Shown here: in pieces, positions 10,300 to 63,400 of the stretch
Layout of the letters: every line of letters starts with the position of its first letter
Numbering within the stretch: position 1 is the stretch's first letter
From: Halarcobacter sp.
Lineage (GTDB): Bacteria > Campylobacterota > Campylobacteria > Campylobacterales > Arcobacteraceae
Assembly: GCF_963675975.1 (NCBI RefSeq)
Contig: NZ_OY780939.1
Coordinates: 1,426,001-1,490,000 of the forward strand
Direction of reading: 5' to 3'
Length of the DNA stretch: 64,000 nt
Notes under the pieces: generated by a model
Databases searched by the model: none
Told to the model about the DNA's origin: nothing
What the model saw: the letters and a program-made list of their open reading frames with translations, nothing else
Made by a program: the position numbers and the translations under genes

Positions 10300-10404
10300 A
10301 AAAAGTCATAAATATTTATTATTTAGGTAAAAAGGTAACAAAAATGTAAAGTTGTTGACATATGCTAATTTAGGGGCTATGTAGGAGTTTTTTTGTCTTG
10401 TTTT

Positions 10405-10457: not shown

Positions 10458-10459
10458 TG

Positions 10460-12109: not shown

Positions 12110-12423
12110 TATAATTCATCCTTTACATCTTCTCTTACTTTTTCAATTAGTTCTTCATACTCACCATTAGCTCTTCTAACATAGATTAATGTTGTAAGGA
12201 AACTTATAACAATAATTGCAATACCAATAGGGTACCCAATTGTCATAACACCATCTCCTGTTTTTGTTCCCAAAAGCGATGGGTTAAAAGCAATTGTTAA
12301 TATATAAGCATAAAACATTGCTAAAACAAATATCCCAAGTTTTATTGCAAAACTTGTTCTTTTCTTAACTAATTGTTGATAGTTAGGATTTGCTTTGATC
12401 TTTTCTACTAATTGTTCATTCAT
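12109..12423 (-). CDS. DUF485 membrane protein, ActP partner (copy 2)
   Basis: Inner-membrane protein of 104 residues and the paralogue of the one at 9852-10166, with the same two predicted membrane segments ([19 protein letters not shown], then [19 protein letters not shown]). It is the first gene of the second DUF485-actP pair and is coupled to actP by the TAATG overlap. RBS is AAGGA. Upstream, 12424-12641 contains phased TGCTA repeats and an inverted repeat, so this is a likely promoter region. Confidence 0.9.
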
Positions 12424-12573
12424 AGAATTATCCTTTCCTTCATAATAAATTTATCCTTTGTTTTAGACAATAAAAACAATGGATTTAAACAAAAAGAATT
12501 ATACATTTATTTATAATTTTAAAACAGATAATTTAGTTATATTAAGTGAAGGTTAAGCCTTGAAAAACTCTTA

Positions 12574-12619
12574 GTAACTATAAGTTACAATATCAAAAAA
12601 AAATGCTATTTTAATGCTA
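12574..12619. promoter_or_regulatory. putative operator region of DUF485-actP copy 2
   Basis: GTAACT-ATA-AGTTAC is a perfect inverted repeat at 12574-12588. TGCTA occurs at 12604 and 12615, 11 bp apart, the same half-site and step as upstream of both pta copies, though in the opposite orientation relative to the gene. The start of the DUF485 gene is about 150-190 bp away. Confidence 0.45.
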
Positions 12620-12641
12620 CGAAACCCATAAAATCAATGTT

Positions 12642-13274
12642 TTAGCCAGTATAGAAAGTTGTATTTGCAGCTGCTTTATCTTTAAGTTTCAAAAAAATCA
12701 TTGAGGTCATAATAGCATCATTTAGTGCATCATGTTTTCCAAGTTCAGGTATATCTAATTCTTTCATAATTGTGTCAAATTTTAAATCTACAAATTCATA
12801 TTCACTGTGTCTTTTTTTAGTTTTAAAATACATTGATGAAACTTCAATTTGATGATTTGGAAGGGAGATTCCTATATACTCTTTTGTATATTTAGAAATA
12901 ATAGCAATATCAAATTTTATGTAATAGCCAATAATAGGTCTGTTACCAATAAAATCTAAAAGCTGAAGTATTGCCTCTTTTGGATCTTTCGCATTTTTTA
13001 AATCTACAGGTCTTATTTGATGAATTTTAATAGATTCACTATTTATATCTTTTGAGGGTTTAACAAATATATTAAATGTATCTCTCATAAGAATTTTATT
13101 TTTTTTAATAATCACTGCACCAATAGACAAAATCTCATCTTTCTTTGGATTTAGACCTGTTGTTTCACAGTCTAAACAAACATATTCATCTTTTGGCGGT
13201 TCATTAAATAGATATTCATAATTTTTATCTTTTAGATTATGTAATCTAAATTTATTCATTAGTTTTTTAAACAT
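12642..13274 (-). CDS. DEDDh 3'-5' exonuclease, DnaQ-like (copy 2)
   Basis: Exonuclease-fold protein of 210 residues and paralogue of the one at 5657-6277. The DEDDh set is visible: D35 and E37 in LDCETTG, the aspartate in YIKFDIAI near residue 123, and the C-terminal GKHDALNDA with His and Asp. It follows the second DUF294/CBS gene with a TAATG overlap and lies immediately upstream of the second DUF485-actP pair. The repeated association with a DUF294 protein and an acetate-type symporter suggests a functional unit, of unknown purpose. Confidence 0.9.
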   Translation of the reverse strand: MFKKLMNKFRLHNLKDKNYEYLFNEPPKDEYVCLDCETTGLNPKKDEILSIGAVIIKKNKILMRDTFNIFVKPSKDINSESIKIHQIRPVDLKNAKDPKEAILQLLDFIGNRPIIGYYIKFDIAIISKYTKEYIGISLPNHQIEVSSMYFKTKKRHSEYEFVDLKFDTIMKELDIPELGKHDALNDAIMTSMIFLKLKDKAAANTTFYTG

Positions 13275-15088: not shown

Positions 15089-15152
15089 TTGTAGCTGCCT
15101 TTTTGATATTTTTTTATACTACCCATATTATAGTATAAAAAAATAACAAAAA

Positions 15153-15170
15153 GCCAACCCGAAGGTTGAC
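15153..15170 (-). terminator. terminator downstream of the third symporter gene
   Basis: On the minus strand GTCAACC pairs with GGTTGGC around a TTCG tetraloop, followed by TTTTTG and a T-rich run. It lies just after the symporter stop at 15178. Confidence 0.85.
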
Positions 15171-15177
15171 TTATGTT

Positions 15178-17055
15178 TTAGTGATCGTGTGCCTCACCAG
15201 CATTGTTTGGAAGTCTGATAGACTCAACAAGCTCTTGAATCTCTTGTGGAGGTTCTGGAGTCATTCTTGATACAACGAATGCCACGATTAAGTGAAGTAT
15301 TGTACCAACTGTACCAATTCCTGTAGGAGCAATTCCTAAGAAATAATCCTCTTTTGATCCACCTAAGAATACAAAGTAAATAATGTATCCAAATGTAAAG
15401 ATTAAACCAGTTAAGATACCAGCGATTGCACCTTCTTTGTTCATTCTTTTGTCAAATACCCCAAGGATAATTGTTGGGAAGAATGCTGCTGCTGCTAAAC
15501 CAAATGCAAACGCAACAACTTGTGCAACGAAACCTGGAGGGTTAATTCCTAAGTAACCAGCAACACAAATAGCAACTACTGCTGAAACTCTTGCCCACAT
15601 TAACTCTGTTTTCTCATTTAATTTAGATTTTCCAGTTTCTGGATCTCTAAATATTACTTGCCCCATAAGGTCATGTGAAATTGCTGATGCAATTACAAGT
15701 AATAAACCTGCTGCTGTAGATAATGCTGCTGCAAGACCCCCAGCTGCGATGAATGCAATTACCCAGTTAGGTAAGTTTGCAATCTCTGGATTTGCAAGAA
15801 CCATAATATCTCTATCAACATATAATTCATTTTCAATTTTTCCACTATTTGCAGCTGGTTTACCATTTGTTGTAGCTCTTTCACCATTTGGCCCAACATT
15901 AGTACCATCAAATTGTGGTTTACCTTTAGGTCCTTCAAATGCTGCATCTGGACCATATTGAATTTTACCATCACCATTTCTATCTGTCCAAGCTAATAAT
16001 CCACCTTGTTCCCAAGTTTTGAACCATCCACCATCATTTGGAGAACCGTCAGCATGTGTTAACTCACCTGCAACAAATGCTTTATACTCAACATTTTGAA
16101 CATTTTTAATTAAGTTCAATCTTGAGAATGCAGCAACTGATGATGCAGTTGTATACATAATAGCAATAAATACTAGCGCATATCCAGCAGAGATTCTAGC
16201 ATCTTTTACAGTTGGAACCGTAAAGAATCTAACAATAACGTGTGGAAGCCCAGCTGTACCTAGCATTAAAGCTGTTGTTAACATGAACATATTCCATAAA
16301 CTTCCTGGCTCAGTATATGCTTTAAATCCTAAGTCAGTAATGGCTGTATCCAAGGCATGCAACAGATAAGTTCCTTCAGGAATAACCTTAACCCCATCGT
16401 GGAATGCAAATGTCGTTTGACCAAATAATGATAATTGTGGTAAGAACGTATCAGTTACTTGTAAAGATAAGAAAATAGCTGGAATTAAATAAGCCATAAT
16501 CATTACACAATATTGAGCAACTTGAGTATAAGTAATACCTTTCATCCCACCTAATACTGAGTAGAAGAAAACTATTGCCATACCGATAAGTACACCAGTA
16601 TTTACATCAACTTGTAAGAATCTTGAGAATACAATCCCAACACCTCTCATTTGTCCTGCAACATATGTAAATGAAATAAAGATAACACAAATAACAGCAA
16701 CTGTTCTTGCTACATTTGAGTAGTATCTATCACCTACGAAATCAGGAACTGTAAATTTACCAAACTTTCTTAAGTATGGTGCTAATAACATTGCAAGTAG
16801 AACATATCCACCTGTCCAACCCATTAGGTAAGCACTTGCATCTGAACCTTTAAATGCAATAATACCTGCCATTGAGATAAATGAAGCAGCTGACATCCAG
16901 TCCGCAGCAGTAGCCATACCATTTGCTACTGGGTGAACTCCCCCTCCAGCTACATAGAAATCTTTTGTAGAACCAGCTTTAGCCCAAAGTGCAATTCCGA
17001 TATATATAGCGAAAGATACACCAACGAATAAATAAATTAATGATTGTAATTCCAT
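15178..17055 (-). CDS. sodium:solute symporter, large subunit (VC_2705-type)
   Basis: Inner-membrane symporter of 625 residues, longer than ActP, of the subfamily that is always encoded with a DUF4212 small subunit. SSS hallmarks are [42 protein letters not shown] and the late ALSTAAGLLLVIASAISHDL. An extra loop of about 110 residues (about 315-425) separates two membrane spans and contains a calcium-loop-like DRNGDGKIQ. The substrate is probably a short-chain carboxylate, judged from neighbours and family, not proven. It starts 11 bp after the DUF4212 gene and ends in a clear terminator. Confidence 0.92.
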   Translation of the reverse strand: MELQSLIYLFVGVSFAIYIGIALWAKAGSTKDFYVAGGGVHPVANGMATAADWMSAASFISMAGIIAFKGSDASAYLMGWTGGYVLLAMLLAPYLRKFGKFTVPDFVGDRYYSNVARTVAVICVIFISFTYVAGQMRGVGIVFSRFLQVDVNTGVLIGMAIVFFYSVLGGMKGITYTQVAQYCVMIMAYLIPAIFLSLQVTDTFLPQLSLFGQTTFAFHDGVKVIPEGTYLLHALDTAITDLGFKAYTEPGSLWNMFMLTTALMLGTAGLPHVIVRFFTVPTVKDARISAGYALVFIAIMYTTASSVAAFSRLNLIKNVQNVEYKAFVAGELTHADGSPNDGGWFKTWEQGGLLAWTDRNGDGKIQYGPDAAFEGPKGKPQFDGTNVGPNGERATTNGKPAANSGKIENELYVDRDIMVLANPEIANLPNWVIAFIAAGGLAAALSTAAGLLLVIASAISHDLMGQVIFRDPETGKSKLNEKTELMWARVSAVVAICVAGYLGINPPGFVAQVVAFAFGLAAAAFFPTIILGVFDKRMNKEGAIAGILTGLIFTFGYIIYFVFLGGSKEDYFLGIAPTGIGTVGTILHLIVAFVVSRMTPEPPQEIQELVESIRLPNNAGEAHDH

Positions 17056-17066
17056 ACTAATACTCC

Positions 17067-17321
17067 TTATTCATGTACGCCATATTTTTCGTCAATAGCA
17101 CTCATTTTTGCTACATAAACAAAAATTAGAACAACGAATACATAAATTGCACCTTGTTGTGCAAACCAAAATCCTAGTTTAACACCACTGATTTCAATTG
17201 TATTTAACTCATTAATAAATAAAATACCACATCCAAAAGAGACTACAAACCAAACAACTAATAATTTAAGAATAGTTGAGATATTCTCTTTCCAATAAGC
17301 TTCTGCTTTCTCTGGACTCAT
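17067..17321 (-). CDS. DUF4212 symporter small subunit
   Basis: Small membrane protein of 84 residues with two predicted spans (about 17-38 and 50-72: LLVVWFVVSFGCGILFI and AIYVFVVLIFVYVAKM). DUF4212 proteins accompany VC_2705-type symporters and are thought to be their small subunit. It is first in the operon, 11 bp before the large subunit, with RBS AGGAG. Its upstream region holds phased TAGCAA repeats, and the two-component genes for a likely regulator lie just beyond. Confidence 0.92.
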   Translation of the reverse strand: MSPEKAEAYWKENISTILKLLVVWFVVSFGCGILFINELNTIEISGVKLGFWFAQQGAIYVFVVLIFVYVAKMSAIDEKYGVHE

Positions 17322-17393
17322 GTCATACTCCTTTTTTTATTTTTACTAAAATTATTTTTAGTAATCCAACATTGAAAGTATAAGAGTTTAATA

Positions 17394-17450
17394 TAGCAAA
17401 AGGGTAGCAATATAAAAAAGTTTTTTTTAAGTGTAGGATTAGTGTAGCAA
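17394..17450 (-). promoter_or_regulatory. phased repeats upstream of the DUF4212-symporter operon
   Basis: TAGCAA occurs at 17394 and 17405, and GTGTAG at 17431 and 17442. Both pairs are exactly 11 bp apart. The region is directly between the operon and the OmpR-type regulator gene. It matches the two-block layout seen upstream of both pta copies. Confidence 0.5.
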
Positions 17451-17484
17451 ATAAGCTTCGAAGAAGCCTATTTATCGAAGGAGT

Positions 17485-18147
17485 TTAAACAGAATAAAAT
17501 CTGTCAATTTTATAGCCAAGACCTCTAATATTTTTGATAAAGTCTTCTTTTAAACCTTTTTTTAGTCTAGAAATCTCTGCTCTTATAGTTGGATTGTCAA
17601 TATTTTCTCCACCCCAGATGTCAACTCTAAATCTTTCAAAGTCAACAATCATGTTAATATTAAGAGCTAAAATATGGATAATATCTAGCTGTTTTTTTGT
17701 AAGAGCTTGGGGTTCTCCATTGAAATATAAAGTTTTCTTCTCTTTTGAGTAAGAATAGTTTTCTGAAAATCTTACATGGGAAGTACTTTTTTGGTCTTTT
17801 TTTAATATTTGATTTATTTTTATACCTAACTCTTCTAAATGAAAAGGTTTTTTAATATATTCTCTACAGCCTAAATCATATGCTCTAGTAATATCTTCTA
17901 TGTCATTTAAAGCAGTAATATATATTGTTGGAATATATACTCTTCTGGCATTTAAATCTTGTAAGATTTCAAAACCATCTTTTTTAGGTACATTAATATC
18001 TAAGATTAATAAATCAAATGATCCGTCAACACTGTTAACAACCTCTTCACCATCAGTGAAACTCTCAACCATGTGCCCAATCCCTTTTAAATACTCAGAG
18101 ATTGCATTGTTTAGCATTAATTCATCTTCAAGAAGCAGTATTTTCAT
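17485..18147 (-). CDS. OmpR-family response regulator
   Basis: DNA-binding response regulator of 220 residues. The receiver domain (1-115) has E7/D8 in the acidic pocket, phosphoacceptor D50 in LLILDINVPKKDG, T78 and K100 in KKPF. The C-terminal winged helix (about 125-220) has the Trans_reg_C pattern ending in IRGLGYKID. It overlaps the sensor kinase gene by 20 bp, so the two form a cognate pair. Position upstream of the third symporter operon and the 11-bp-phased repeats on acetate gene promoters suggest it controls acetate transport and metabolism. That target set is inferred. Confidence 0.95.
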   Translation of the reverse strand: MKILLLEDELMLNNAISEYLKGIGHMVESFTDGEEVVNSVDGSFDLLILDINVPKKDGFEILQDLNARRVYIPTIYITALNDIEDITRAYDLGCREYIKKPFHLEELGIKINQILKKDQKSTSHVRFSENYSYSKEKKTLYFNGEPQALTKKQLDIIHILALNINMIVDFERFRVDIWGGENIDNPTIRAEISRLKKGLKEDFIKNIRGLGYKIDRFYSV

Positions 18148-19711
18148 TTATTTTAAACCTATAAGTAAATTTTGTTTCATTGTCAGTTGATTCAAGTTTG
18201 ATTATAACTAAATTTTTATCACATATTTCTTTTACTATTCGAAGCCCCAAACCAAAGCCTCCACGTGAATTATTTTCCCTATAAAAATCATTAAAAATTT
18301 TATTTATATCTTCAATTTTATCAGAATTTGTTTTTACACTAAATTCCACATATTCATCATTAAAATATGTAAGTCTTACATAAATACTAGATTTTGCAAA
18401 GGAATACTTGATTGCATTTGAGATATTGTTATCAACAATTCTTTGTAATTCTAATCGATTAAATTTAATATAAATATCTTCATCTATATTTGTTGTAAAC
18501 ATTAAATCATTTGCTGTTGCAATACCATCAAAGAAATTAAGTCTCTCTTTTAAAAATTCTGAAAAATCTATGTACTCTTTAGGATAATCAACTCTATCTT
18601 TTTTTATTAGATATGAAAGGTCATCATAAATGTATTGGATGATTTTTGCTCCACTTTCTATATTTGATACATATTTGTTATCTTCTGAATGCATTTTAAG
18701 TAAATCGATGTTTGTACGAATAATAGATAAAGGTGTATTTATCTCATGTACAGAGTTTTTCAAAAACTTCTTTTGTGAATCAATTAGGTTTTGTAGTTCT
18801 TTTGTTTGATGATTTACCGTTTCTTCTAGATGTTTATTTAGTTCTTGCAACATAATATTTTTATCTTTTATATTATGCATAGCATCATATGCAAAATTTG
18901 CAATAACTTTAAATTCTCCAAAGATTAATCTATCTTGTTTAATTCTATTATCATCTTTTTGAGATTCTTTAAGATATTTTCCTATCTCTTTTACATCATT
19001 AACAATTAATATAGTAGCATTTTTGTAAATGAAAATTGAATAAAGTACAAGCATAATAGTTAAAGACATAATTTGAAGAACATAATTAGAGATTTTCTCA
19101 TCATATTCCTCTTTTTTTACTTTTACTATCTTATCAATCTCATCAAGATAAATACCTCGACCTATAGTCCAATTCCAAGGTTCATAAGATAAAGCATAAG
19201 ATATTTTAAGTGCATCTTTTCTAATCTCAGGTTTATACCAAATATATTGTATAAATCCACCATTTTTATTTTTTGATATATCTATTAACTCTTGAATTAC
19301 TTTTTTACCTGAGGGATCTTTAAATTCATATAGATTTTTCCCTATATAATCTTTTGATACAGGATAATAAAGTGAGGTACCATTAAAATCATATATAAAT
19401 ATATAATTGTTTAGATTTCCATGTTTTCTCATAATCTCTAAGGATTCTAGAATATCTTTCTTTATGAGTTCTTCTGATTTTTTATTTTTGAATTTATCAT
19501 GATAATATTTAATATAATTTAAAGTTTTTTTAATATCTGCTTGTATTAAATCTTTTTGTTTATTTGTATAGTCAGTTTTTATTATCTCAATCTTTTCTTG
19601 GAACTCATCAAAAGCATTATCAATAATTATAAAAGTAAAAGAGGAGGTAAGTAAAACAATAAAAAATATACTATATAAAATTAAGTGATATAGAGATTTT
19701 GCTTTAACCAT
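18128..19711 (-). CDS. Cache-domain sensor histidine kinase
   Basis: Membrane sensor kinase of 527 residues. TM1 is about 8-30 and TM2 about 210-232. Between them lies a periplasmic single-Cache domain (about 35-205; the pattern YDFNGTSLYYP, IGKNLYEFKDPSGK and GRGIYLDEID is typical of sCache_2). The cytoplasmic part has the HisKA phosphoacceptor H322 in NSVHEINTPLS, the N-box N432 and the G-box GGFGLGL at 484-490. sCache_2 domains often bind small carboxylates such as acetate, lactate or pyruvate, which fits the symporter neighbours; the ligand here is inferred. It overlaps the response regulator by 20 bp. Confidence 0.93.
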   Translation of the reverse strand: MVKAKSLYHLILYSIFFIVLLTSSFTFIIIDNAFDEFQEKIEIIKTDYTNKQKDLIQADIKKTLNYIKYYHDKFKNKKSEELIKKDILESLEIMRKHGNLNNYIFIYDFNGTSLYYPVSKDYIGKNLYEFKDPSGKKVIQELIDISKNKNGGFIQYIWYKPEIRKDALKISYALSYEPWNWTIGRGIYLDEIDKIVKVKKEEYDEKISNYVLQIMSLTIMLVLYSIFIYKNATILIVNDVKEIGKYLKESQKDDNRIKQDRLIFGEFKVIANFAYDAMHNIKDKNIMLQELNKHLEETVNHQTKELQNLIDSQKKFLKNSVHEINTPLSIIRTNIDLLKMHSEDNKYVSNIESGAKIIQYIYDDLSYLIKKDRVDYPKEYIDFSEFLKERLNFFDGIATANDLMFTTNIDEDIYIKFNRLELQRIVDNNISNAIKYSFAKSSIYVRLTYFNDEYVEFSVKTNSDKIEDINKIFNDFYRENNSRGGFGLGLRIVKEICDKNLVIIKLESTDNETKFTYRFKINENTAS

Positions 19712-19796: not shown

Positions 19797-19873
19797 TGGC
19801 GCGGTTGACGAGACTCGAACTCGCGACCTCCTGCGTGACAGGCAGGCATTCTAACCAACTAAACTACAACCGC
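19797..19873 (-). tRNA. tRNA-Asp (GTC), copy A
   Basis: Complete 77-base cloverleaf with encoded CCA end. The acceptor stem GCGGTTG pairs with CAACCGC, and the anticodon loop CTGTCAC is closed by CCTGC/GCAGG. It has the same sequence as the tRNA at 20067-20143. Last gene of the tRNA array in transcription order. Confidence 0.97.
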
Positions 19874-19890
19874 ACAACAATGCAAAAAAA

Positions 19891-19966
19891 TGGTGGTCGA
19901 TATAAGACTCGAACTTATGACATCTACCTTGTAAGGGTAGCGCTCTACCAACTGAGCTAATCGACC
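19891..19966 (-). tRNA. tRNA-Val (TAC), copy A
   Basis: Complete 76-base cloverleaf with encoded CCA. Acceptor GGTCGAT pairs with ATCGACC; anticodon loop CTTACAA sits between CTACC and GGTAG. Same sequence as the copy at 20245-20320. Confidence 0.97.
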
Positions 19967-19968
19967 AG

Positions 19969-20044
19969 TGGTGACCCGTGAAGGATTCGAACCTTCGGCC
20001 ACCTCCTTAAAAGGGAGATGCTCTACCGGCTGAGCTAACGGGTC
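19969..20044 (-). tRNA. tRNA-Lys (TTT), copy A
   Basis: Complete 76-base cloverleaf with encoded CCA. Acceptor GACCCGT pairs with ACGGGTC; anticodon loop CTTTTAA. Only 2 bases separate it from the tRNA-Val downstream. Same sequence as the copy at 20455-20530. Confidence 0.97.
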
Positions 20045-20066
20045 ATATGGTATATTTATTATAAAG

Positions 20067-20143
20067 TGGCGCGGTTGACGAGACTCGAACTCGCGACCTC
20101 CTGCGTGACAGGCAGGCATTCTAACCAACTAAACTACAACCGC
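20067..20143 (-). tRNA. tRNA-Asp (GTC), copy B
   Basis: Second 77-base tRNA-Asp, the same as the one at 19797-19873, with encoded CCA. Confidence 0.97.
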
Positions 20144-20160
20144 ACTAAATTATAAATAAA

Positions 20161-20235
20161 TGGTGACCCCTAGGAGACTCGAACTCCTGTGGCATGGATG
20201 AAAACCATGAATCCTAACCGCTAGATGAAGGGGCC
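20161..20235 (-). tRNA. tRNA-Glu (TTC), copy A
   Basis: Complete 75-base cloverleaf with encoded CCA. Acceptor GGCCCCT pairs with AGGGGTC (one G-U); anticodon loop TTTTCAT closed by CATGG/CCATG. Same sequence as the copy at 20331-20405. Confidence 0.97.
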
Positions 20236-20244
20236 ATTTACATA

Positions 20245-20320
20245 TGGTGGTCGATATAAGACTCGAACTTATGACATCTACCTTGTAAGGGTAGCGCTCT
20301 ACCAACTGAGCTAATCGACC
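20245..20320 (-). tRNA. tRNA-Val (TAC), copy B
   Basis: Second 76-base tRNA-Val with anticodon TAC, the same as the one at 19891-19966. Confidence 0.97.
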
Positions 20321-20330
20321 AAATAAAACT

Positions 20331-20405
20331 TGGTGACCCCTAGGAGACTCGAACTCCTGTGGCATGGATGAAAACCATGAATCCTAACCGCTAGATGAAG
20401 GGGCC
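20331..20405 (-). tRNA. tRNA-Glu (TTC), copy B
   Basis: Second 75-base tRNA-Glu with anticodon TTC, the same as the one at 20161-20235. Confidence 0.97.
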
Positions 20406-20454
20406 AACAATATAAAAATTTAAAGAACATTTATAAACATAAATATGTTTAAAA

Positions 20455-20530
20455 TGGTGACCCGTGAAGGATTCGAACCTTCGGCCACCTCCTTAAAAGG
20501 GAGATGCTCTACCGGCTGAGCTAACGGGTC
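20455..20530 (-). tRNA. tRNA-Lys (TTT), copy B
   Basis: First tRNA of the array in transcription order, 76 bases, anticodon TTT, the same as the one at 19969-20044. The array order on its strand is Lys-Glu-Val-Glu-Asp-Lys-Val-Asp. Confidence 0.97.
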
Positions 20531-55063: not shown

Positions 55064-55080
55064 TCAATTTGTAACATTAA

Positions 55081-55091
55081 CTATTGATTAA
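55081..55091. repeat. left boundary direct repeat (candidate att core)
   Basis: CTATTGATTAA lies 18 bp after the chemoreceptor stop and recurs in the same orientation at 63227-63237, just past the last cargo gene. The two copies bracket the integrase, Rep and ATPase-HNH genes. A short core like this is plausible for a tyrosine recombinase, but the AT-rich sequence makes chance matching possible. Confidence 0.4.
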
Positions 55092-55124
55092 TACTCAATA
55101 CCTTAGTGATGGTATTTAGAAGAG

Positions 55125-56168
55125 TTACTGTGCTACTTTTGTGTTCATAGTATCTAGTACAGAAACTTTTCTTACTGTTCTTCTTCTAAGGTATTTAGTA
55201 TATTTCTCTAATGTGATATTTGCAGATTTATGACCTAACATAGAAGATACCCAAAGTAAATCTTCTCCATTTGATAACATGTTACTTGCAAAAGAATGTC
55301 TTAGTTGATATATTCCTCTTGTTTTTAGATTACATTTTTTTAAGAGTTTTTTCCAATTACTGGCTAAAGAATTAGAATCAAGAAAATGTTTATCTGTACA
55401 AGGAGAAATAAAAACATACTCACCAAGTCCAGTTAATCTTTGTTGAGATTTTAAAAATTTTTCACATTGAGGAAGCATATCAATTACTCTTTGAGAACTT
55501 TTTGTTTTTGGAGATTGAATAAACCCTTTTGTTATAGTTCTATTTACTTCTATTGTATAATTAGTAAAATCTATTTCACTCCATTTTAAACCTAAAACTT
55601 CACCAGTTCTAAGACCTGTAAAAAAGTTAATTCCTATAAGGTTTTTAAACCAATTAATTTTACAAGTATCTAACAAGTACATAATTTCATCAAATGTAAA
55701 AGGATTTAATGAATAACTTTTTGTAAATCTTGGTTTTGAAATAACTAAAGGAGTAGTTTTTATGTACTCCCTTAGTATTGCTTTCTCAATAGCTGGCTTA
55801 AAAACTGATAGAGCATTTATTAAAGTACTTCTATCACTAAATGTTTTATACCATTTTTCTATATCAATAGGTTTTATCTCATTGATAAGCGTATCATTAA
55901 AATAGTTTTTTATTCTATTTCTAAAAATACTTTCATATGCTCTATAAGTTGTTTGTTTTAGAGTTTCTTCTTTTTCATCTAAAACCTCTTCACAAAGCTC
56001 AACAATAGTTGGAACATTTTTATTAACATCAAACTTTTTAAAGAACTCATCATTTTTATAATATGATGTAACTAGTTTTCTATTTTCTTTTGTATCTTTT
56101 AATTTGGTAGATACTCTTTGACCATTTATTCTGACATATAGTATGTCATTACGAGAGTAAAATTTCAT
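55125..56168 (-). CDS. tyrosine recombinase/phage-type integrase
   Basis: Site-specific integrase of 347 residues. A SAM-like N-terminal core-binding domain (about 50-140) precedes the catalytic domain. Active-site residues are R187 in GLRTGEV, K223 in KTKSSQR, R290 in YQLRHSF, H313 in LGHKS and nucleophile Y323 in LEKYTKY. The first histidine of the HxxR box is Y287 here, a known variant in phage integrases. It is last in the operon, overlapping the helix-turn-helix gene by 4 bp (ATGA), and its stop codon adjoins the left arm-type repeat. Confidence 0.95.
   Translation of the reverse strand: MKFYSRNDILYVRINGQRVSTKLKDTKENRKLVTSYYKNDEFFKKFDVNKNVPTIVELCEEVLDEKEETLKQTTYRAYESIFRNRIKNYFNDTLINEIKPIDIEKWYKTFSDRSTLINALSVFKPAIEKAILREYIKTTPLVISKPRFTKSYSLNPFTFDEIMYLLDTCKINWFKNLIGINFFTGLRTGEVLGLKWSEIDFTNYTIEVNRTITKGFIQSPKTKSSQRVIDMLPQCEKFLKSQQRLTGLGEYVFISPCTDKHFLDSNSLASNWKKLLKKCNLKTRGIYQLRHSFASNMLSNGEDLLWVSSMLGHKSANITLEKYTKYLRRRTVRKVSVLDTMNTKVAQ
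55127..55148. repeat. left arm-type tandem repeat
   Basis: Two half-sites 11 bp apart, TGTGCTACTTT then TGTGTTCATAG, at the very end of the integrase gene. The counterpart at 63091-63112 agrees with it at 18 of 22 positions. Such tandem repeats are what integrase arm-binding domains recognise. Confidence 0.45.
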
Positions 56169-56458
56169 TTTTTCTCCTTGAAATTTACAATCGCACTTTC
56201 TATAAATTTGATTTTAACACGATTACCATTAAGATTTTTAGTGTAATGAATACCTTGTTTTAATCTTCCATCTTTCATCATCAAATGAAGAGTACTATCA
56301 CTAACATTTAGATACTTCTTTACTCCTGCTCTTTTAGATAAATCAAGTTTAGGAACTAAATCGTTTTCTAGCTTTTCTAATCTAGTATGTATCTGTTCTA
56401 AATAATTTAGAAGTTTAGGAATATCTTCTAAGTTCTCAAATGCTTGGAGATTCATCAT
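56165..56458 (-). CDS. helix-turn-helix protein, excisionase-like
   Basis: Protein of 97 residues. The first half is a short coiled coil (LNYLEQIHTRLEKLENDL); the second half (about 42-95) resembles the MerR/excisionase-type winged helix (KKYLNVSDSTLHLMMKDGRLKQ, then HYTKNLNGNRVKIKF). It overlaps Rep upstream by 23 bp and the integrase downstream by 4 bp, so it is coupled to both. A role as recombination directionality factor or copy regulator is inferred from position. Confidence 0.65.
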   Translation of the reverse strand: MMNLQAFENLEDIPKLLNYLEQIHTRLEKLENDLVPKLDLSKRAGVKKYLNVSDSTLHLMMKDGRLKQGIHYTKNLNGNRVKIKFIESAIVNFKEKK

Positions 56459-57788
56459 CCACCTCCACTTTAATAACTTCTGGCATTAAACCTCTAAACT
56501 TCAATTCTCTTAATGCAACATTATACATATCACTAAACCATTGTGATTCATGTTGAACATTTTGAATCTTATCTGCATATCTAAATAGTTCATAATCATT
56601 AAGCTCTACAACTGATACAGTTCTAGTTGGAGTTATTATTGAGCCATCTTCTAATTGTCTTAATCTTTTGATATTTCCTTCTTTATCAATAATATCTATA
56701 TCAACATATCTTTGTTTGATTTGTTCTTTTTTAGGCTTTGGATTTAATATAGAATCTTTTGCTTTTAAATATAGCTCTTTTAAATACTCTATATCTAATG
56801 TAAGATTATTTATATATGCTTTTCTAATAAGTCCTAAGTATTCAAACTCAAACTTGTTTTCATCATATATTGATAACTTTCTTTTTACTCTTTCTAAAGA
56901 TATTGTAGATTGTAAAAAAGATTCAATGTTAAAATCATTTTTAATCTCTTCCCAAATTGGATGTGTTTTAGCTTGATATTTATTGTTTTGTAAATTAGCT
57001 TCTGAAATAGAACTTGTATCTATTAGTCTAATTTCATCCATAGCGTTTTGAAATAGATTCTTTGTATTAGATAATACCTCTTCTACTGTTTGAATCTCAT
57101 ATTGTCTTAAATGTCTTCTATGTAATTGAAACTCTATATTAAATATTGGTTGTTCCATGTCAAAGTCATTACTTAAAAAGTACTCATTCATAATCTCAAA
57201 CTTTTTAGATTTCTTTAGTTCTAGACTTTTATTGTAAAGTCTTAATTTAAAAGGGTCTTTCCCTATATAAATAGTTTGAGTTGAATTTGCATCTCCAATT
57301 TCATTAATAGTTGAATATTTTCTTTTTCTAGTTACAAACATATCTTTTTTTACAAAAGAAAAGTCATGTTGAATAAAGCAGTTTATATCTACTCTTGTAA
57401 TAGGTATAAAATTAGTTATATATCCATCTAACATTTTTTTGAGTAATTCAATAATAGAATTAATACCAATAGTATAAATACCATTTCCTTGAAGCTGTAC
57501 TCTAATATCATTTAATCCTCTATTATCTTTTATATCTTTAAATCCAATTCTAAAAAGCTCATGTTGAGACTCTTTAAAAAAGTAAAAACCTTCTCTTCTT
57601 CCTAAGTATTGTAAAGTGATATCATTTATTTTTATATGGATATCTTTCTTTTCAAACTGTATTTCTTTTTTTCTAAAGACTCCTTTTATATCTTCCATTT
57701 GGTCTAATATGTCTAAGTATAAATTGTCATATTCCTCATTAGATTCAAAGAAGAAGTATAAAGAGTCTATGCCATATATTTTTTTCAT
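56436..57788 (-). CDS. replication initiation factor-like protein (Rep_trans type)
   Basis: Protein of 450 residues that resembles the rolling-circle replication initiation factor family. Features are TRVDIN with R132 and D134, TIYIGKDPFKLRLYNKSLEL at 172-191 with Y185 as candidate catalytic tyrosine, and FNIEFQLHRRHLRQY after it. Such proteins nick a hairpin-associated origin. A strong hairpin region lies 46-142 bp upstream of its start. The C-terminal 150 residues have no recognised domain. The assignment is by pattern memory, not a search. Confidence 0.65.
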   Translation of the reverse strand: MKKIYGIDSLYFFFESNEEYDNLYLDILDQMEDIKGVFRKKEIQFEKKDIHIKINDITLQYLGRREGFYFFKESQHELFRIGFKDIKDNRGLNDIRVQLQGNGIYTIGINSIIELLKKMLDGYITNFIPITRVDINCFIQHDFSFVKKDMFVTRKRKYSTINEIGDANSTQTIYIGKDPFKLRLYNKSLELKKSKKFEIMNEYFLSNDFDMEQPIFNIEFQLHRRHLRQYEIQTVEEVLSNTKNLFQNAMDEIRLIDTSSISEANLQNNKYQAKTHPIWEEIKNDFNIESFLQSTISLERVKRKLSIYDENKFEFEYLGLIRKAYINNLTLDIEYLKELYLKAKDSILNPKPKKEQIKQRYVDIDIIDKEGNIKRLRQLEDGSIITPTRTVSVVELNDYELFRYADKIQNVQHESQWFSDMYNVALRELKFRGLMPEVIKVEVDDESPSI

Positions 57789-57833
57789 GGTTTCCTCTTT
57801 GTTATATTTGTTGTTTTAATTAAGTGTTCTAGG

Positions 57834-57865
57834 AAGGGGTATTACTATTAATAAATATACCCCTT
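57834..57865. other. hairpin upstream of the Rep-like gene
   Basis: AAGGGGTAT pairs perfectly with ATACCCCTT around a 14-base loop made only of A, C and T. It is 46 bp upstream of the Rep start. It could be a terminator for plus-strand transcripts (TTTT follows) or part of a replication origin. Confidence 0.5.
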
Positions 57866-57874
57866 TTCGTCTCT

Positions 57875-57930
57875 CAAAGAAGAGCTGAGAAAAAGTGTGT
57901 CTCCCCACACTTTTGTCTCATCTTTCTTTG
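57875..57930. other. long interrupted hairpin, candidate rolling-circle origin
   Basis: Three nested stems fold into one hairpin: CAAAGAAGA with TCTTTCTTTG (one bulge), GAGA with TCTC, and AAAAGTGTG with CACACTTTT around a 6-base loop. It sits between the Rep-like gene and the small protein gene, the usual place of a double-strand origin for such initiators. Function as nick site or origin is inferred. Confidence 0.5.
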
Positions 57931-57931
57931 G

Positions 57932-58189
57932 CTAAACGCCATAGAAGCTATATTGTTTAGAAATGATTCCAACATCTACGCTAACTTCTTTGTTTATTTT
58001 GTCTCTATAGAGCATAATTCTAGTATCAGGTATAGAGATTGTATGAAGCTCTTTTATCTTTGTTCCATTAGCTCTGATTGTTTCTACTAAGATTTGAAGT
58101 TTTGCTTTTACATCAACTTCTAATCCATCCTCTTTTTTGTATTTACTTTTATCAACTATATTGATAAGTTGTCCTACAAGTTTTAACAT
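57932..58189 (-). CDS. small protein, possible ssDNA-binding
   Basis: Protein of 85 residues without a certain family. The alternating hydrophobic pattern (VDVKAKLQILVETI, KIKELHTISIPDTRIML, EVSVDVGIIS) suggests a small beta-rich OB-like fold, as in phage helix-destabilising proteins that partner Rep initiators. It lies upstream of the Rep-like gene on the same strand, with the long hairpin between them. RBS is AAGGA. The ssDNA-binding role is inferred from fold pattern and position. Confidence 0.5.
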   Translation of the reverse strand: MLKLVGQLINIVDKSKYKKEDGLEVDVKAKLQILVETIRANGTKIKELHTISIPDTRIMLYRDKINKEVSVDVGIISKQYSFYGV

Positions 58190-58298
58190 TGTTTTTCCTT
58201 TGTAATTTTTATTTACAAAGCGCGCTATGTATTAATTAGATATCTGATTGGAAGTTTGACAGATTTTTTATATTTGCTCAATGCAAATATGAAAGTTT

Positions 58299-59381
58299 TT
58301 ATCTTTTGATTTTGTATTGACTTTTTTTCAAAGATAATTGTAGTAAGTCTCTAAAAAGTTTTAAAAACCTAGGGTTATCGTAAATAGGATGTTTCTTTTT
58401 ATTCTTTTGAGTAATTTTCTCCATAATTGGTTTATCAAAAAATAAATCTTTTAATTGAATTTCTTTGTTTAAATCTCTAGCATTATATTTAAAATAATCA
58501 ATATCTACAATATTTTCTAGAAGGTCATTTAAAAAATCTATAAAATCAGTTTGATTACCAAAGCCATACCTATTAATTTCACTAAATGGAAAAAGTGAAA
58601 TAGTCCAAAATCTCATACTATGAATAAAATCAGTTTCTTTTAAACCTTGTGAAGCATTTAGTCTTTTTTTCATTTTTAGTATAATTTTTAGAATCTCTAT
58701 ATCATTTTCATTTTTTAAATATTTAAATGTATTCTCATTAATAGTGCTAAGAATAATTATTGCTTCATAAGGTTTTTTTTCAAAGTTTTTTATACCCTTA
58801 AGTATTCTTTCTAATTCTTCATTTTCATTTACTAATTTTAGAATATCTTCAACATCATTTTTTATAGACTGAAGTACCTCTGATATATCTCTATTTGAAG
58901 AAAAAGCAACTCCTTTTTCTTTAAGTGGAATAGTATCATCATCTTTTATTTTTAAAAATTCATTCATGAGATTTTTTTGATAGTTTATTATAAAAAACAT
59001 ATCAAATAATGATTTTGAATATTTGACATTATCGATTATCTTTACTTCATCATTTAATACTAATTTTTTTAAATTGTCTTCAAAATCATAAGAACAATTT
59101 TCATTAAGGGAATAATGAAATTTATTAAATGTATTATCAATGATATTTTCTATTTCTTTTTCATTAGTCTTTTCAAGTTTTGGGGCTACTATTTTTAATA
59201 AACTATCGAATAGTTCTGAGAAGTCAACTTTTGTATTATGTTGATTTTCCCAATTTCTATTTGCAAAGATTTTTAATCTATGTGTATCAATTAGCTTTTC
59301 AAGTTTTTTGTATGAAGTATTTAATTTATTCATACTTTTTATAGAATTTATGATGTAAGTTATTGAGTTCTTATAATTCAT
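58299..59381 (-). CDS. uncharacterised 360-residue protein, divergent from the ATPase-HNH pair
   Basis: I do not recognise this gene. It encodes a mostly helical, lysine-rich protein of 360 residues with no signal peptide, membrane span or known catalytic motif. Notable segments are KKLEKLIDTHRLKIFANRNW near the N-terminus and the aromatic stretch SMRFWTISLFPFSEINRYGFGNQTDF about two thirds along, split here as RFWTISLFPFSEINRYG. A 123-bp gap separates its start from that of the ATPase, so promoters are back to back. It could be a third defence component, a regulator or an unrelated cargo gene. The stop is followed by ATATTTGC/GCAAATAT (58269-58290), a possible terminator. Confidence 0.6.
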   Translation of the reverse strand: MNYKNSITYIINSIKSMNKLNTSYKKLEKLIDTHRLKIFANRNWENQHNTKVDFSELFDSLLKIVAPKLEKTNEKEIENIIDNTFNKFHYSLNENCSYDFEDNLKKLVLNDEVKIIDNVKYSKSLFDMFFIINYQKNLMNEFLKIKDDDTIPLKEKGVAFSSNRDISEVLQSIKNDVEDILKLVNENEELERILKGIKNFEKKPYEAIIILSTINENTFKYLKNENDIEILKIILKMKKRLNASQGLKETDFIHSMRFWTISLFPFSEINRYGFGNQTDFIDFLNDLLENIVDIDYFKYNARDLNKEIQLKDLFFDKPIMEKITQKNKKKHPIYDNPRFLKLFRDLLQLSLKKSQYKIKR

Positions 59382-59504
59382 AAAATTATTATATATTAAC
59401 TTTATTGAAACAATAAAATATTTTTATATTCAAAGTTAATTTTATTATCAAATTAATTATATATATGTATAATTAATTTAAAATATTTTGTATAAAGAAC
59501 TATT

Positions 59505-61979
59505 ATGAGATTACTTTTTATTTACTTTTACAAAGAGTTCGCAACTTTTGAAAAAGACAGCATTGTACATCTATCTAAAAAATATAAATTTACTTTAGAT
59601 AATGAAAAATCCTCTGAAAATCAATTTTATTTTAAAAAAAAAGAAAATATTGATTTTATAAATGATTTTTATTCAGAAAATATAGATATAGGTTTACTTC
59701 TTGGTGAAAATGGCACAGGTAAAAGTGTACTATTAAATTCTATAAGAGATGAAAAGAATGATTATTCAATTTGTATATATGAAGAAAGAGATAAGTTTTA
59801 TATTTTAGATAATAATTTAACAAAATTGAGAAGACATAAATTATATGGTGAGTTTAACATTCCTTATGAAGAGGAATCTGACTTTTTTGTAAGAATAGAT
59901 AATAAAAAGATAGAGACTGAAAGAAAATTCAAATCGATATATTATAGTTCTATAGTAGAAAAAATAAATAAAAATCTAAAAGATGACTCTAATATTTCAG
60001 ATGTTGAAATACTTTCTAAAATCGATGGAGACTCTTTAGATAAAAAAATTGAATTACTTGAAATAAGTGATTTACATAAAATGTATAAATTTAATTATAA
60101 TTATGCAATAAATCCATCAAAAACATTTTTCAAAGATGCAAAAGAGTTTATTAAAGATTCATATATTTTACTTTTTCAAAAAGTGATGGAACTTTTAAAT
60201 AAAAATAAAGAGTATGAAAAAATAGAAAAGATTTTTGATAAGTTACCTAAGTTTATTATGGATGATATTGTTGAGTATTATTTAGAAGAAAAAGAAATAT
60301 TTATTGAGGAAATAAAAGAGAACCAAAAAATTGTTAAAGAGTATTTAGAAGTTTATAAAAAAAATATTTATAACTATTTGAGAATTGGAAAAATTGATGT
60401 AGATGAAGAACTTTTAAAAATAAATAAAAGAGCTGTTGAAAATGAGAACAGATTATTTAATGATGATTTTTTTAATGAATTATCTAAAATAAATTTTGAT
60501 TTAAAGAGAGAAAATATAAAAGTTATATTAGAAAGTGTAAGAAAACTTTTTAAGATTAAATATAGACGATATCGAACTAAGGATTTTGAAGATAATTCAA
60601 AGAGAATGTTAATGTATTTTGGTATAGAAAAAGCATTTGAAATGTGTTTGGAACGACTTAAATCTCGAGATAAAAAAATAGATGACATAAAAAATGTATT
60701 TGAAATATATAAGTTGTATTATTTAAGACAAGAGATGGGATATAATAGTTTTATTTTAATTGATTTATTTAAAAAAGGAAAATTTGAAGATATCTTATTA
60801 TTAGACAAAAAAAATAAATCTATTCAACTCTCAAAAGATAATAAAGTGATAGAAGATAATAAAGAAAAAACCCTAAATGAGATAAAAAAAATTGTTGAAG
60901 ATAATTACTCTTCATTTTATAATATACTTATAGATAAATTAGAAGATGTTGATGATAATATATTAAAATTATTGATAATAAAAAAGGTTGAAAAAGAAAA
61001 AAATACTGAGAAGGCTAATTATGATAAAACAGATTATAATAGAGCTTCATATGTATGTTTGGTTAGTCTTTTAAAAAGTGCTTTTATTGAAGATGAAGAA
61101 AAAAAATATTTATTAAATATTTTGAATGAGAAAGAAAAGTTTATAGAGTATAATTTACTGGTTATATATAATCAAAAATATAAAGATAATTCTCCTATTG
61201 ACTCAAACTCAGAACTAAACTTTCAAAAATATAAAAAATTTGTAAAAGATGGAATTCAGCCTTTTAGTTTTTCTTTTGAACCTCCTATTTCCTCAGGACA
61301 AAAAGCAAAAGAGGTAATAAATGCAAGAATAAATGATGCAATTCAACAAATAATTAAAGAAAATAAAGATGAAAATATTTTAATACTTTTAGATGAAGCA
61401 GATTTAAAACTTCATCTTGAGTGGCAAAGACAATTTTTATATGATTTAATAGAGTTCTTAAAGACATATAGTGAAAATAAATTTTATATACTTTATTCTA
61501 CACATTCACCAATGATATTATCTGATATTACAAATGATAGGGTTGTGTTTTTAAAAAAAGAAGAAAATGCAAAATTTTCAGAAGATAAACAAGATTTTAC
61601 TAAAAGTACCTTTGGTGCAAATATTTATGATATTTATGCAGATAGCTTTTTTGTAGATGATTTTATGGGTAAATTTGCACAAGATAAAATAACTTATATA
61701 ATAGAACGGATAGAGTCTCATGGAATTGATAAGCAAACAATTACAGAAGAAGAATCCAAAAATCTTTTAAAAGTTGTAAAAAATATAGGTGAGCCACTTT
61801 TAAGAAATAAATTAGAAGATGAGATAAAGTCTTTATTTGAGATTAAAGATGATATTGATGAGATTGTTGAGAGTTTGAAAAGTGAGAGGTTTGAAGAGAT
61901 AAAAAAAGAATTAGATAAATATACTCAAGATAAACAAGAAAAGATATTAGCAAAACTATTTGGAAATCAAAATGATTAA
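59505..61979 (+). CDS. AAA/ABC-type ATPase of an ATPase-HNH defence-like pair
   Basis: Large ATPase of 824 residues with the split ABC/SMC-like head. Walker A is GENGTGKS (67-74); about 500 helical residues follow; then the signature-like SSGQ (596-599), Walker B with D630 and E631 in LILLDEADLKLH, and switch H667 in YSTHSPMIL. The FGANIYDIYADSFFVDDFMGKFAQ block after it is typical of OLD/PtuA-like antiphage ATPases. It overlaps the HNH gene and so works with it. Longer than typical PtuA, so the exact system type is open. An origin by transfer is inferred from the element. Confidence 0.8.
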   Translation: MRLLFIYFYKEFATFEKDSIVHLSKKYKFTLDNEKSSENQFYFKKKENIDFINDFYSENIDIGLLLGENGTGKSVLLNSIRDEKNDYSICIYEERDKFYILDNNLTKLRRHKLYGEFNIPYEEESDFFVRIDNKKIETERKFKSIYYSSIVEKINKNLKDDSNISDVEILSKIDGDSLDKKIELLEISDLHKMYKFNYNYAINPSKTFFKDAKEFIKDSYILLFQKVMELLNKNKEYEKIEKIFDKLPKFIMDDIVEYYLEEKEIFIEEIKENQKIVKEYLEVYKKNIYNYLRIGKIDVDEELLKINKRAVENENRLFNDDFFNELSKINFDLKRENIKVILESVRKLFKIKYRRYRTKDFEDNSKRMLMYFGIEKAFEMCLERLKSRDKKIDDIKNVFEIYKLYYLRQEMGYNSFILIDLFKKGKFEDILLLDKKNKSIQLSKDNKVIEDNKEKTLNEIKKIVEDNYSSFYNILIDKLEDVDDNILKLLIIKKVEKEKNTEKANYDKTDYNRASYVCLVSLLKSAFIEDEEKKYLLNILNEKEKFIEYNLLVIYNQKYKDNSPIDSNSELNFQKYKKFVKDGIQPFSFSFEPPISSGQKAKEVINARINDAIQQIIKENKDENILILLDEADLKLHLEWQRQFLYDLIEFLKTYSENKFYILYSTHSPMILSDITNDRVVFLKKEENAKFSEDKQDFTKSTFGANIYDIYADSFFVDDFMGKFAQDKITYIIERIESHGIDKQTITEEESKNLLKVVKNIGEPLLRNKLEDEIKSLFEIKDDIDEIVESLKSERFEEIKKELDKYTQDKQEKILAKLFGNQND

Positions 61980-63024
61980 AGTTGATAATAGTGCTAAAAA
62001 AAGAGTTTTTTGTAATTCTGATAAAAAAGAAGTTTTGGACTTAAAACAAAAAGTAATAGAAAAAATAGAAGAGATAGAAAAAACGACTAAAAACTACAAT
62101 GAGTTAACAGTTTTTGAGAGAGAACTTTATATTGATACTATCTCAGTATTTAAATTTAAAAAGTTGATTGATAAGCAAATTACTAATTTATTAAGAAGTA
62201 AACTATCAGATGATTTTAAAGAGGAACTTCGAACTTTGAAGAATGACTTGTATTTTATCTTAGTTGCAGATATTAATACTATAAAAAACTATTTAAAAAC
62301 TAAAATTGCTTTAAACTCGTTATTGATACATCAAGGGGATAAAAAGTTAAAATCAAGTGATTTTAAAAAATATCAAAAAAAGTTCGAAACACTGTATAGT
62401 GAAAATTTGAGTAATATTAAATCATCTTTTAAAAGACCTTTTTTTGATTTATTTGAAGATATAAATGTTTGTCCATATTGCAATAGAAATTTTATAAATC
62501 CAATTTATAAAGAGCATAGTTTAAGTGGAGATAATAAAAATCAATCACCTGATATAGAACATTTTTATCCAAAATCAATTTATCCATTTTTATCTTTAAG
62601 TATCTCAAATCTTTTACCATCTTGTAGCTTTTGCAATAAAATAAAAAGTGATGTTGATACTTATAAATATAATTGTCTTAGTCCATATGAAATAAAGAAA
62701 AATGATTTTAGATTTGATTTTAAATTTAAGTCTAATCAAGTAAAAGAAGTAAAGCTTATGTCAAAAGAGCCTCGTTGTAAAAATTCAGAGATTTTAAATC
62801 TTGAATCTTTATATAATGAAGTTCATAATAAACAAATAAATGAAATATTTGATGATATTTTAAAATATCCAAAAAGCTATAAAAGGTCTCTTGGAAAATT
62901 TAAATTAACTGAGAGTGATTATAAGAAAATATTTAGAAATTATTACGATGAAAGAGATTTTAATAAACATCCTTTATCTAAGATGACTAAAGATTTATAT
63001 AATCAAATAAACGGACTTATTTAA
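61972..63024 (+). CDS. HNH endonuclease, PtuB/TIGR02646-like
   Basis: Nuclease of 350 residues from the ATG at 61972; an in-frame TTG four codons upstream is the alternative. Counting from the ATG, the zinc-bracketed HNH core is C167-PY-C170, then DIEHFYPKS with catalytic H197, N213 in SISNLLPSC, and C218-SF-C221. The first 155 residues are helical and may contact the ATPase. The ATPase stop lies 8 bp inside this gene. The pair resembles Septu (PtuA-PtuB), in which the HNH protein cuts DNA during phage infection. Confidence 0.8.
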   Translation: MIKVDNSAKKRVFCNSDKKEVLDLKQKVIEKIEEIEKTTKNYNELTVFERELYIDTISVFKFKKLIDKQITNLLRSKLSDDFKEELRTLKNDLYFILVADINTIKNYLKTKIALNSLLIHQGDKKLKSSDFKKYQKKFETLYSENLSNIKSSFKRPFFDLFEDINVCPYCNRNFINPIYKEHSLSGDNKNQSPDIEHFYPKSIYPFLSLSISNLLPSCSFCNKIKSDVDTYKYNCLSPYEIKKNDFRFDFKFKSNQVKEVKLMSKEPRCKNSEILNLESLYNEVHNKQINEIFDDILKYPKSYKRSLGKFKLTESDYKKIFRNYYDERDFNKHPLSKMTKDLYNQINGLI

Positions 63025-63090
63025 AAGATTTAGTTTTATCAACAATAAAATGTTAGGGTGTTATAATTATATGAAATATAATATTAAAAA

Positions 63091-63112
63091 ACTGTGTTAA
63101 TTTTGTGCTAAT
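63091..63112. repeat. right arm-type tandem repeat
   Basis: TGTGTTAATTT and TGTGCTAATTT follow each other with an 11-bp step. They match the repeat at the integrase end (55127-55148) at 18 of 22 positions in the same orientation, which supports this as the right end region of the element. Confidence 0.45.
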
Positions 63113-63226
63113 TTTTAAAATATTAAATAGAATTTTTCATATGTTAATTTTTATTAAGTTTATAGAAAGTACGATTTTAAGGGATTTGTCTTTTTATTAA
63201 TATATTAAAAAACACCTCATTGTTAT

Positions 63227-63237
63227 CTATTGATTAA
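63227..63237. repeat. right boundary direct repeat (candidate att core)
   Basis: CTATTGATTAA, same as at 55081-55091. It lies 202 bp after the HNH stop and about 35 bp before the -10 element of the candidate small RNA. Confidence 0.4.
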
Positions 63238-63282
63238 CTTTTTGTTACTTTAGTATTAATTCTCATCCATTATAATTTTTAC

Positions 63283-63400
63283 ATGGATTAAGAAGGTATG
63301 CGAATCCTTCAGAAATTTAAAAAACTGCGAATTTTTTAAATTTTCCAATTTGTTTCCTTGTGTGTAAAAGGACTCCTTGAAAAAGGAGCCCTTTTTTTTT
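63283..63400 (+). ncRNA. candidate small RNA with twin TGCGAAT loops
   Basis: A TATAAT box at 63271-63276 predicts a start near 63283. The predicted RNA of about 118 nt has GAAGG/CCTTC enclosing TATGCGAAT, then a long AT stem (GAAATTTAAAAAA with TTTTTTAAATTTTC) enclosing CTGCGAA, and ends in a strong terminator, AAGGACTCCTT/AAGGAGCCCTT with a nine-U tail (63366-63400). No start codon with a useful frame is seen. It could instead be a leader of the helicase gene, but termination occurs 69 bp before that start. Confidence 0.55.
63366..63400 (+). terminator. rho-independent terminator of the candidate small RNA
   Basis: AAGG-A-CTCCTT pairs with AAGGAG-C-CCTT around GAAA, followed by nine T. Confidence 0.85.

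Follow-up and report, generated by a model that had tools for sequence, protein, structure and literature searches.

The 64-kb window of Halarcobacter DNA analyzed here (the whole stretch, G000:C1:1426001-1490000, of a 3.27-Mb genome) contains an integrated element at positions 55081-63237 that is an insertion without a counterpart at the same site in close relatives. The element is a member of a Campylobacterota family whose members share a homologous replication initiator (REP) and the same gene order, integrase (INT), helix-turn-helix (HTH) protein, REP, and putative single-stranded DNA (ssDNA)-binding protein (SSB), at unrelated loci. Profile matches indicate that the cargo carried next to this backbone is mostly anti-phage defense. 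The element is probably integrative and dependent on a helper, and it belongs to a defense-carrying family that is Campylobacterota-wide.

Boundaries and empty site

The ends of the element are marked by the two copies of an 11-bp direct repeat, CTATTGATTAA, which are the only copies in the 64 kb of the window; two or more copies occurred in 1 of 100 shuffled sequences. The initial annotation had proposed an integrated element for which uninterrupted sites joining 55080 to 63238 should exist in relatives. With both flanks fused through one 11-mer as the query, such sites were found in G068 and G054, in which the joined flanks align contiguously (495 bp/columns at 86% and 534 bp/columns at 77%, respectively) around a single CTATTGATTAA. 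The empty-site core of G057 has diverged (CTCTTGGTTAA). The site was located via the right flank in 15 of 15 congeners, and the cassette is not fixed at this place, as REP was missing from 10 of these genomes and the remaining 5 carry it at another genomic location. Neither condition that the initial annotation had named as refuting, a cassette fixed in all relatives or the lack of an empty site, therefore applies. The element combines what defines a site-specific integrative element: an integrase gene of its own, ends formed by direct repeats, and relatives in which the site is empty.

Seven genes lie between the flanks, five on the minus strand followed by two on the plus strand. The neighbors are a chemoreceptor gene on the left, ending at 55063, and a uvrD-type helicase gene on the right, starting at about 63421. 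The features of the element are as follows.

55081..63237: integrated element, ~8.1 kb, bounded by an 11-bp direct repeat
55081..55091, plus strand: left attachment core CTATTGATTAA, exact 11-bp direct repeat paired with 63227-63237
55125..56168, minus strand: tyrosine integrase, 347 aa (Pfam PF00589, Phage_integrase, E 7e-21; PF14659, N-terminal SAM-like, E 3e-12; phrog_1 integrase, E 2e-61)
55129..55146, plus strand: left putative integrase arm-binding pair TGTGCTA, TGTGTTC, spacing 11 bp
56165..56458, minus strand: small HTH protein, 97 aa, overlapping the integrase gene (weak HTH_17 match, E 0.004)
56436..57788, minus strand: Rep, predicted rolling-circle initiator of Rep_trans fold, 450 aa (AlphaFold model and Foldseek)
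57834..57865, minus strand: predicted rolling-circle origin hairpin, AAGGGG...TAGTAATACCCCTT (loop conserved and stem changes compensatory throughout the order)
57875..57930, minus strand: long hairpin just downstream of SSB (long stem here in most elements, sequence unconserved)
57932..58189, minus strand: putative SSB, 85 aa (conserved adjacency to rep; no database match)
58299..59381, minus strand: fifth gene, 360 aa, mostly helical product (conserved position adjoining SSB; fast-diverging)
59505..61979, plus strand: cargo AAA/ABC-type ATPase, 824 aa, Septu-like (PADLOC PDC-M62A, E 8e-45, residues 1-811; PtuA, E 7e-15)
61972..63024, plus strand: cargo HNH endonuclease, Septu-like, overlapping the ATPase gene (PADLOC PDC-M62B, E 3e-33, residues 63-351; PtuB, E 2e-14)
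63093..63110, plus strand: right putative integrase arm-binding pair TGTGTTA, TGTGCTA, spacing 11 bp
63227..63237, plus strand: right attachment core CTATTGATTAA, exact 11-bp direct repeat paired with 55081-55091

Joining 63226 to 55081 gives a predicted attP of the form ...CATTGTTATCTATTGATTAATACTCAATACC... for the excised element. Tandem repeats of the type TGTGCTAAAATTGTGCTAAA (L072 and L081) are found inside both ends of most elements of the family and look like arm sites to which the integrase would bind. When the window by itself was searched for single arm-repeat sites, there was no excess over chance, and the case for arm sites therefore comes from the comparison across elements.

A phylum-wide family with exchangeable defense cargo

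Related genomes were searched for the integrase-HTH-Rep-SSB cassette, which was detected across the Campylobacterota at many sites. REP matches were present in 19 of the 104 genomes of the bacterial family and in 34 of 397 genomes of the phylum, as well as in metagenome-assembled genomes of Sulfurimonas, Sulfurovum, and others. In most loci, the genes for INT, HTH, REP, SSB, and the fifth protein are on one strand, with cargo beyond them that is often divergent. L074 and L077 are exceptions, with a 412- to 413-aa integrase at the opposite end. Direct repeats bound most of the elements; no boundary was found for L071. Sizes range from 3.8 kb (L072, which consists of the backbone alone) to about 11 kb. 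Integration sites include the genes for tRNA-Asn (L064, L066, L069, and L084), tRNA-Arg (L065, L072, and L079), tRNA-Leu (L068), and tmRNA (L074 and L077, beside which their integrase genes lie), and there are other sites too. Two family elements were found in one genome in G026 (L067 and L068) and also in G002, G036, and G046, which indicates that copies can co-reside. The SSB-REP intergenic regions of the two G026 elements are identical despite different integrases and sites.

A few of the 34 phylum matches are weak (E 1e-8 to 1e-12) and of another kind. These loci (L202, positions 4180-19501, and also L200, L201, and L203-L205) carry a distant REP homologue (E 4e-11 in L202) and an SSB-like gene, together with a gene for an M15-peptidase-like protein, behind an IS110-like transposase gene; L202 has two copies ~9.07 kb apart. 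These units are perhaps small ssDNA phages.

In the window element, the cargo is an ATPase-HNH pair that adjacent matches to the A and B profiles assign to PDC-M62, a candidate defense system. The HNH protein has 350 aa if translated from the ATG at 61972 or 354 aa from the TTG at 61960. The PADLOC PtuA and PtuB matches of the pair are weaker than its PDC-M62 matches, and an assignment to Septu (PtuAB) was rejected by cut-off, as the NCBIfam scores were 37 bits versus 500 for PtuA and 17 versus 150 for PtuB; the NCBIfam models used are retron Ec78 models.

That the cargo at the ATPase-HNH position might be exchangeable had been suggested in the initial annotation, and other loci agree, with different, mostly defense-related systems, NLR-like ones among them, in this place as follows.

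L063: Tmn
L064: Lamassu
L066: TIR-NLR
L068: NB-ARC/TPR
L069: retron type II-A
L070: NACHT
L071 and L082: AriA/OLD-like ATPase
L076: Qat
L079: type I restriction-modification (RM)-like
L083: DUF4062/NB-ARC
Other bacterial families: Nsn/PD-T4-2-like, PDC-S49, AbiO/Nhi, PtuA-like, type I RM, retron NDT, and AriA-like

At a threshold of E 1e-5, PADLOC matches were obtained for 13 of 20 cargo proteins from the family and 9 of 10 from the order, compared with 2 of 10 flanking chromosomal proteins, both of which were short, weak matches; the fractions are indicative, as cargo proteins were chosen by position and size and the boundaries of the order-level elements are partly undefined. Unrecognized proteins in the slot of L065, L067, L073, L081, and L084 are defense candidates by position.

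Swaps are seen between near-identical backbones. L064 and L084 occupy the same tRNA-Asn site in two species. From the flank to the end of SSB, a stretch that includes INT, HTH, and REP, their identity is 96.7%; the fifth gene and cargo are unrelated, and similarity returns near the right end. The same pattern was found for L066 and L069, also at this tRNA-Asn site, with a backbone identity of 89%. Conversely, L063 and L064 are 96% alike from REP through SSB and the fifth gene and differ in integrase, site, and cargo. These comparisons show that the integrase module, the replication core, and the fifth gene with the cargo are exchangeable blocks.

Replication genes, predicted origin, and insertion target

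The integrase, HTH protein, and Rep_trans-like initiator named in the initial annotation were borne out by Pfam matches for the first two, the HTH match being weak, and a fold match for the third. Rep has no meaningful sequence match in Pfam, PHROG, or PDB. Its AlphaFold model (pLDDT 75) matched S. aureus RepDE and Geobacillus Rep (4cwe, 4cij) in Foldseek at E 4e-10 to 2e-8, with TM-scores by target of 0.54-0.57 against 4cwe and 4cij, and also matched Inoviridae Rep models (BFVD). The modeled fold places Rep among the Rep_trans rolling-circle initiators. Weak matches only were obtained when 18 REPs were scanned against PHROG, and comparison of the REP and SSB profiles with PDB sequences gave nothing credible. 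Y185 of Rep, within LRLYNK, is invariant and is likely to be the catalytic tyrosine.

The HTH protein is a probable excisionase or regulator; an HTH gene adjoins the integrase gene both in these elements and in filamentous phages (inoviruses). The annotated SSB gene is present and is conserved beside rep, and the name of its product, a putative function, was chosen from size and context. No family match was found for the product of the fifth gene, and its model (pLDDT 61) gave no fold match. The fifth genes form ten BLAST clusters, most of which were joined by profile comparison, and are probably one fast-diverging family. The fifth gene and the origin hairpin at 57834-57865 are additions to the initial annotation.

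Directly upstream of rep is a hairpin (such as AGGGGTATATAGTAATACCCCT) with the pattern expected of a rolling-circle origin, and it is predicted to be one. A stem of at least 6 bp, at least 4 of them G-C, around TAGTA was present in 21 of the 23 regions from the family and in 19 of the 32 others, compared with averages of 0.02 and 0.04 in shuffles. When the 13 remaining order-level regions were judged by eye, 11 showed this hairpin again, its stem re-paired (for example, CCGAGTATTCTTGGTAATACTCGG in L180 and AGCGATGCTTTTGGTAACACATCGCT in L185). The letters of the hairpin vary while its pairing is maintained, and the loop is near GGTAA or AGTAA. The covarying hairpin and the invariant Y185 are consistent with tyrosine-dependent nicking at the origin. 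The long hairpin at 57875-57930 may be a terminator, a single-strand origin, or a packaging signal.

At the insertion site, the CTATTGATTAA core sits within a row of TTAAC-like repeats at 11-bp spacing. This row, which may be an operator of the response-regulator type, and a TATAAT at 63271 precede a conserved, terminated, transcript-like stretch of ~115 nt (63284-63400) with a terminator-like hairpin near 63370-63399. The first right-hand repeat after insertion is TTATC in place of TTAAC, so that the region upstream of the transcript-like stretch is nearly restored. This small-RNA-like stretch (window 63238-63400) is kept throughout the genus (all 16 genomes), some members of which have it in tandem or multiple copies, and an Rfam scan of the flanking transcript gave no family above threshold. 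L070, in another genus, has a similar core, AAGTTAACTCTTTGTTAA, which is likewise upstream of a uvrD gene. Elsewhere in the window, an eight-tRNA cluster (19797-20530) contains Asp, Val, Lys, and Glu twice each, as if duplicated.

Proposed transfer and relation to known elements

In Pfam, PADLOC, PHROG, and NCBIfam scans and a search for Zot, the element yielded no recognizable virion or coupling gene and no known relaxase. Because virion and transfer genes are absent, the element would depend on a helper, and it resembles phage satellites in being without virion morphogenesis genes. The integrase and HTH protein would excise an 8146-bp circle, and Rep would nick the hairpin loop, initiating rolling-circle replication. 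The displaced strand would be coated by the putative small SSB, exit in a helper particle, and re-integrate in a new host, where the cargo would guard the host, and hence the element, from other phages. The likeliest helpers would be inoviruses, which have length-flexible ssDNA particles, and this choice of helper is a tentative one, with a probability somewhat short of even. It is conceivable, with similar reserve, that the family consists of integrase-bearing satellites of filamentous ssDNA phages with a defense hotspot, distributed phylum-wide as the inovirus-packaged counterpart of the P4, PICI, and PICMI hotspots, with the fifth gene mediating helper specificity or interference.

Zot was found in 18 of the 104 family genomes, and the 18 loci are Arcobacteraceae inoviruses (L128-L145; L236 is a further one). 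Their genes, as read from the proteins, encode coat-like, pIII-like, pVI-like, Zot, secretin-like, HUH-motif Rep, HTH, and INT proteins. The recognizable inovirus INT and HTH proteins match the element profiles (INT with E down to 1e-108), and in both groups a rolling-circle initiator gene adjoins the homologous integrase and HTH genes. Integrases of elements and inoviruses are intermingled in the tree; that of inovirus L136 is beside those of elements L189, L078, and L082 (support 100/99), and that of inovirus L236 groups with the window integrase. In contrast to these inoviruses, the element has no Zot, coat, pIII-like, secretin, or HUH-motif Rep gene, and it was rejected as an inovirus itself on the lack of Zot and coat genes. 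No REP element contained Zot. In L238 (4628-7960) and L248 (4262-7700), an SSB of the element type accompanies HUH Rep, HTH, and INT of the inovirus type, and Zot is absent. L239 (5322-7900) is a small element with inovirus-type HUH Rep, HTH, and INT and likewise without Zot. These three are possibly a second class of satellites.

Several results weigh against transfer by inoviruses. REP and Zot co-occurred in 4 genomes versus 3.3 expected (p 0.43), which is chance, and the window genome itself (G000) has no Zot; species carrying both an element and an inovirus are represented by G005, G022, G065, and G092. A shared packaging signal was not detected, the Rep of the inoviruses has no homology to REP and did not match its profile, and integrases of this group also serve other elements. 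REP had no match among INPHARED phages, and the 72 pattern matches in IMG/VR included zero relatives. REP also had no match among the PLSDB plasmids.

The element could instead be an integrative mobilizable element (IME) in which the Rep_trans protein would serve as a MOBT-like relaxase and the hairpin as an oriT, with transfer through the pore of a conjugative element. Relaxases of the MOBT family have a relationship to Rep_trans initiators, and there are IMEs that bear them (PMC11389934; PMC7563843). The Rep_trans fold is compatible with this possibility and fails by itself to separate an initiator from a relaxase. The streptococcal MOBT IMEs (PMC7563843) resemble the window element in having an integrase and a Rep_trans-type protein and no transfer apparatus of their own. 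However, the window element differs from them in phylum, in having an SSB and an origin hairpin beside rep, and in having no recognized coupling protein; MOBT is described from Firmicutes (PMC6499999); and Pfam/NCBIfam-type profile scans gave no relaxase-family match for Rep. VirB4 was present in 9 of the 104 genomes and overlapped with REP in 1 (1.6 expected), and an SSB beside rep and a hairpin directly before it fit replication at least equally well. Mobilization of this type is considered unlikely. We assign a similarly low probability to a satellite or generalized cargo of tailed phages, as with PICI, P4, and PICMI, in which rolling-circle concatemers would be packaged by a tailed phage. 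PICMI115 has a tiny gene kit, rolling-circle replication, concatemer packaging by a virulent phage, and defense accessory genes (PMC10803314), and a virulent helper would leave the genome without a trace. On the other hand, terminase PF03237, the one TerL family searched, was found in 6 of the 104 genomes with 1 overlap with REP; no AlpA, primase, capsid-remodeling, or packaging gene was recognized; and ssDNA is suggested by the dedicated putative SSB and by the integrase-HTH partners of inovirus type. Across the 104 genomes, REP was not associated with Zot, VirB4, or TerL, and co-occurrence therefore does not choose a helper.

Far less probable is a defense island that is inherited mainly vertically and reshuffled by homologous recombination, for example after natural transformation, with the integration and replication genes as remnants. 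The rep gene is interrupted in two copies (L071 in G006 and L084 in G063), and the cargo swaps resemble recombination between the backbone and the right end. However, conservation of Rep, SSB, the origin hairpin, and exact ends extends throughout the order and over many different sites, implying continued selection for excision, replication, and integration.

Small satellite-like elements with defense hotspots are a known kind, represented by PICMI, P4, and PICI, and the backbone described here could not be matched to a described one. PICMI of Vibrionaceae has a core of int, alpA, and primase, a single integration site (downstream of fis), and virulent tailed phages as helpers (PMC10803314). 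Like PICMI, the window element is a very small integrative element with a minimal kit, predicted rolling-circle replication, and a single defense hotspot, without virion genes. However, its family has an INT, HTH, Rep_trans Rep, and SSB core, occupies many sites, and is found in Campylobacterota; assignment to PICMI was rejected because the gene content does not include an int-alpA-primase core downstream of fis. An exchangeable anti-phage cargo at a fixed place in the backbone is shared with P4-like satellites and PICIs, as described in PMC9122126 and PMC10803314, whereas no homologous backbone gene was recognized and the initiator is of the Rep_trans type. RS1 is a satellite of the filamentous phage CTXphi that shares genes with its helper (PMC11389934). 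The window element resembles RS1 in lacking coat genes, in its predicted rolling-circle replication, and in the filamentous particles that would package it. RS1 integrates via host XerCD and carries rstC, whereas the window element encodes a tyrosine integrase and defense cargo, and its Rep differs from that of the local inoviruses. No description of the element family was found in the open literature on Arcobacter, inovirus, or Campylobacterota satellites, subscription literature being outside the search, and it stands as a candidate new family, as the initial annotation had anticipated.

The origin hairpin, Rep, and the predicted attP make the proposed helper-dependent transfer directly testable. 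If the helper is an inovirus, defense genes would travel in ssDNA filamentous particles that are released without lysis; we know of no description of defense genes carried in such particles. In nearly all of the elements examined, the system in the cargo slot is a different one, which would make the family a vehicle for the exchange of defense systems among Campylobacterota.

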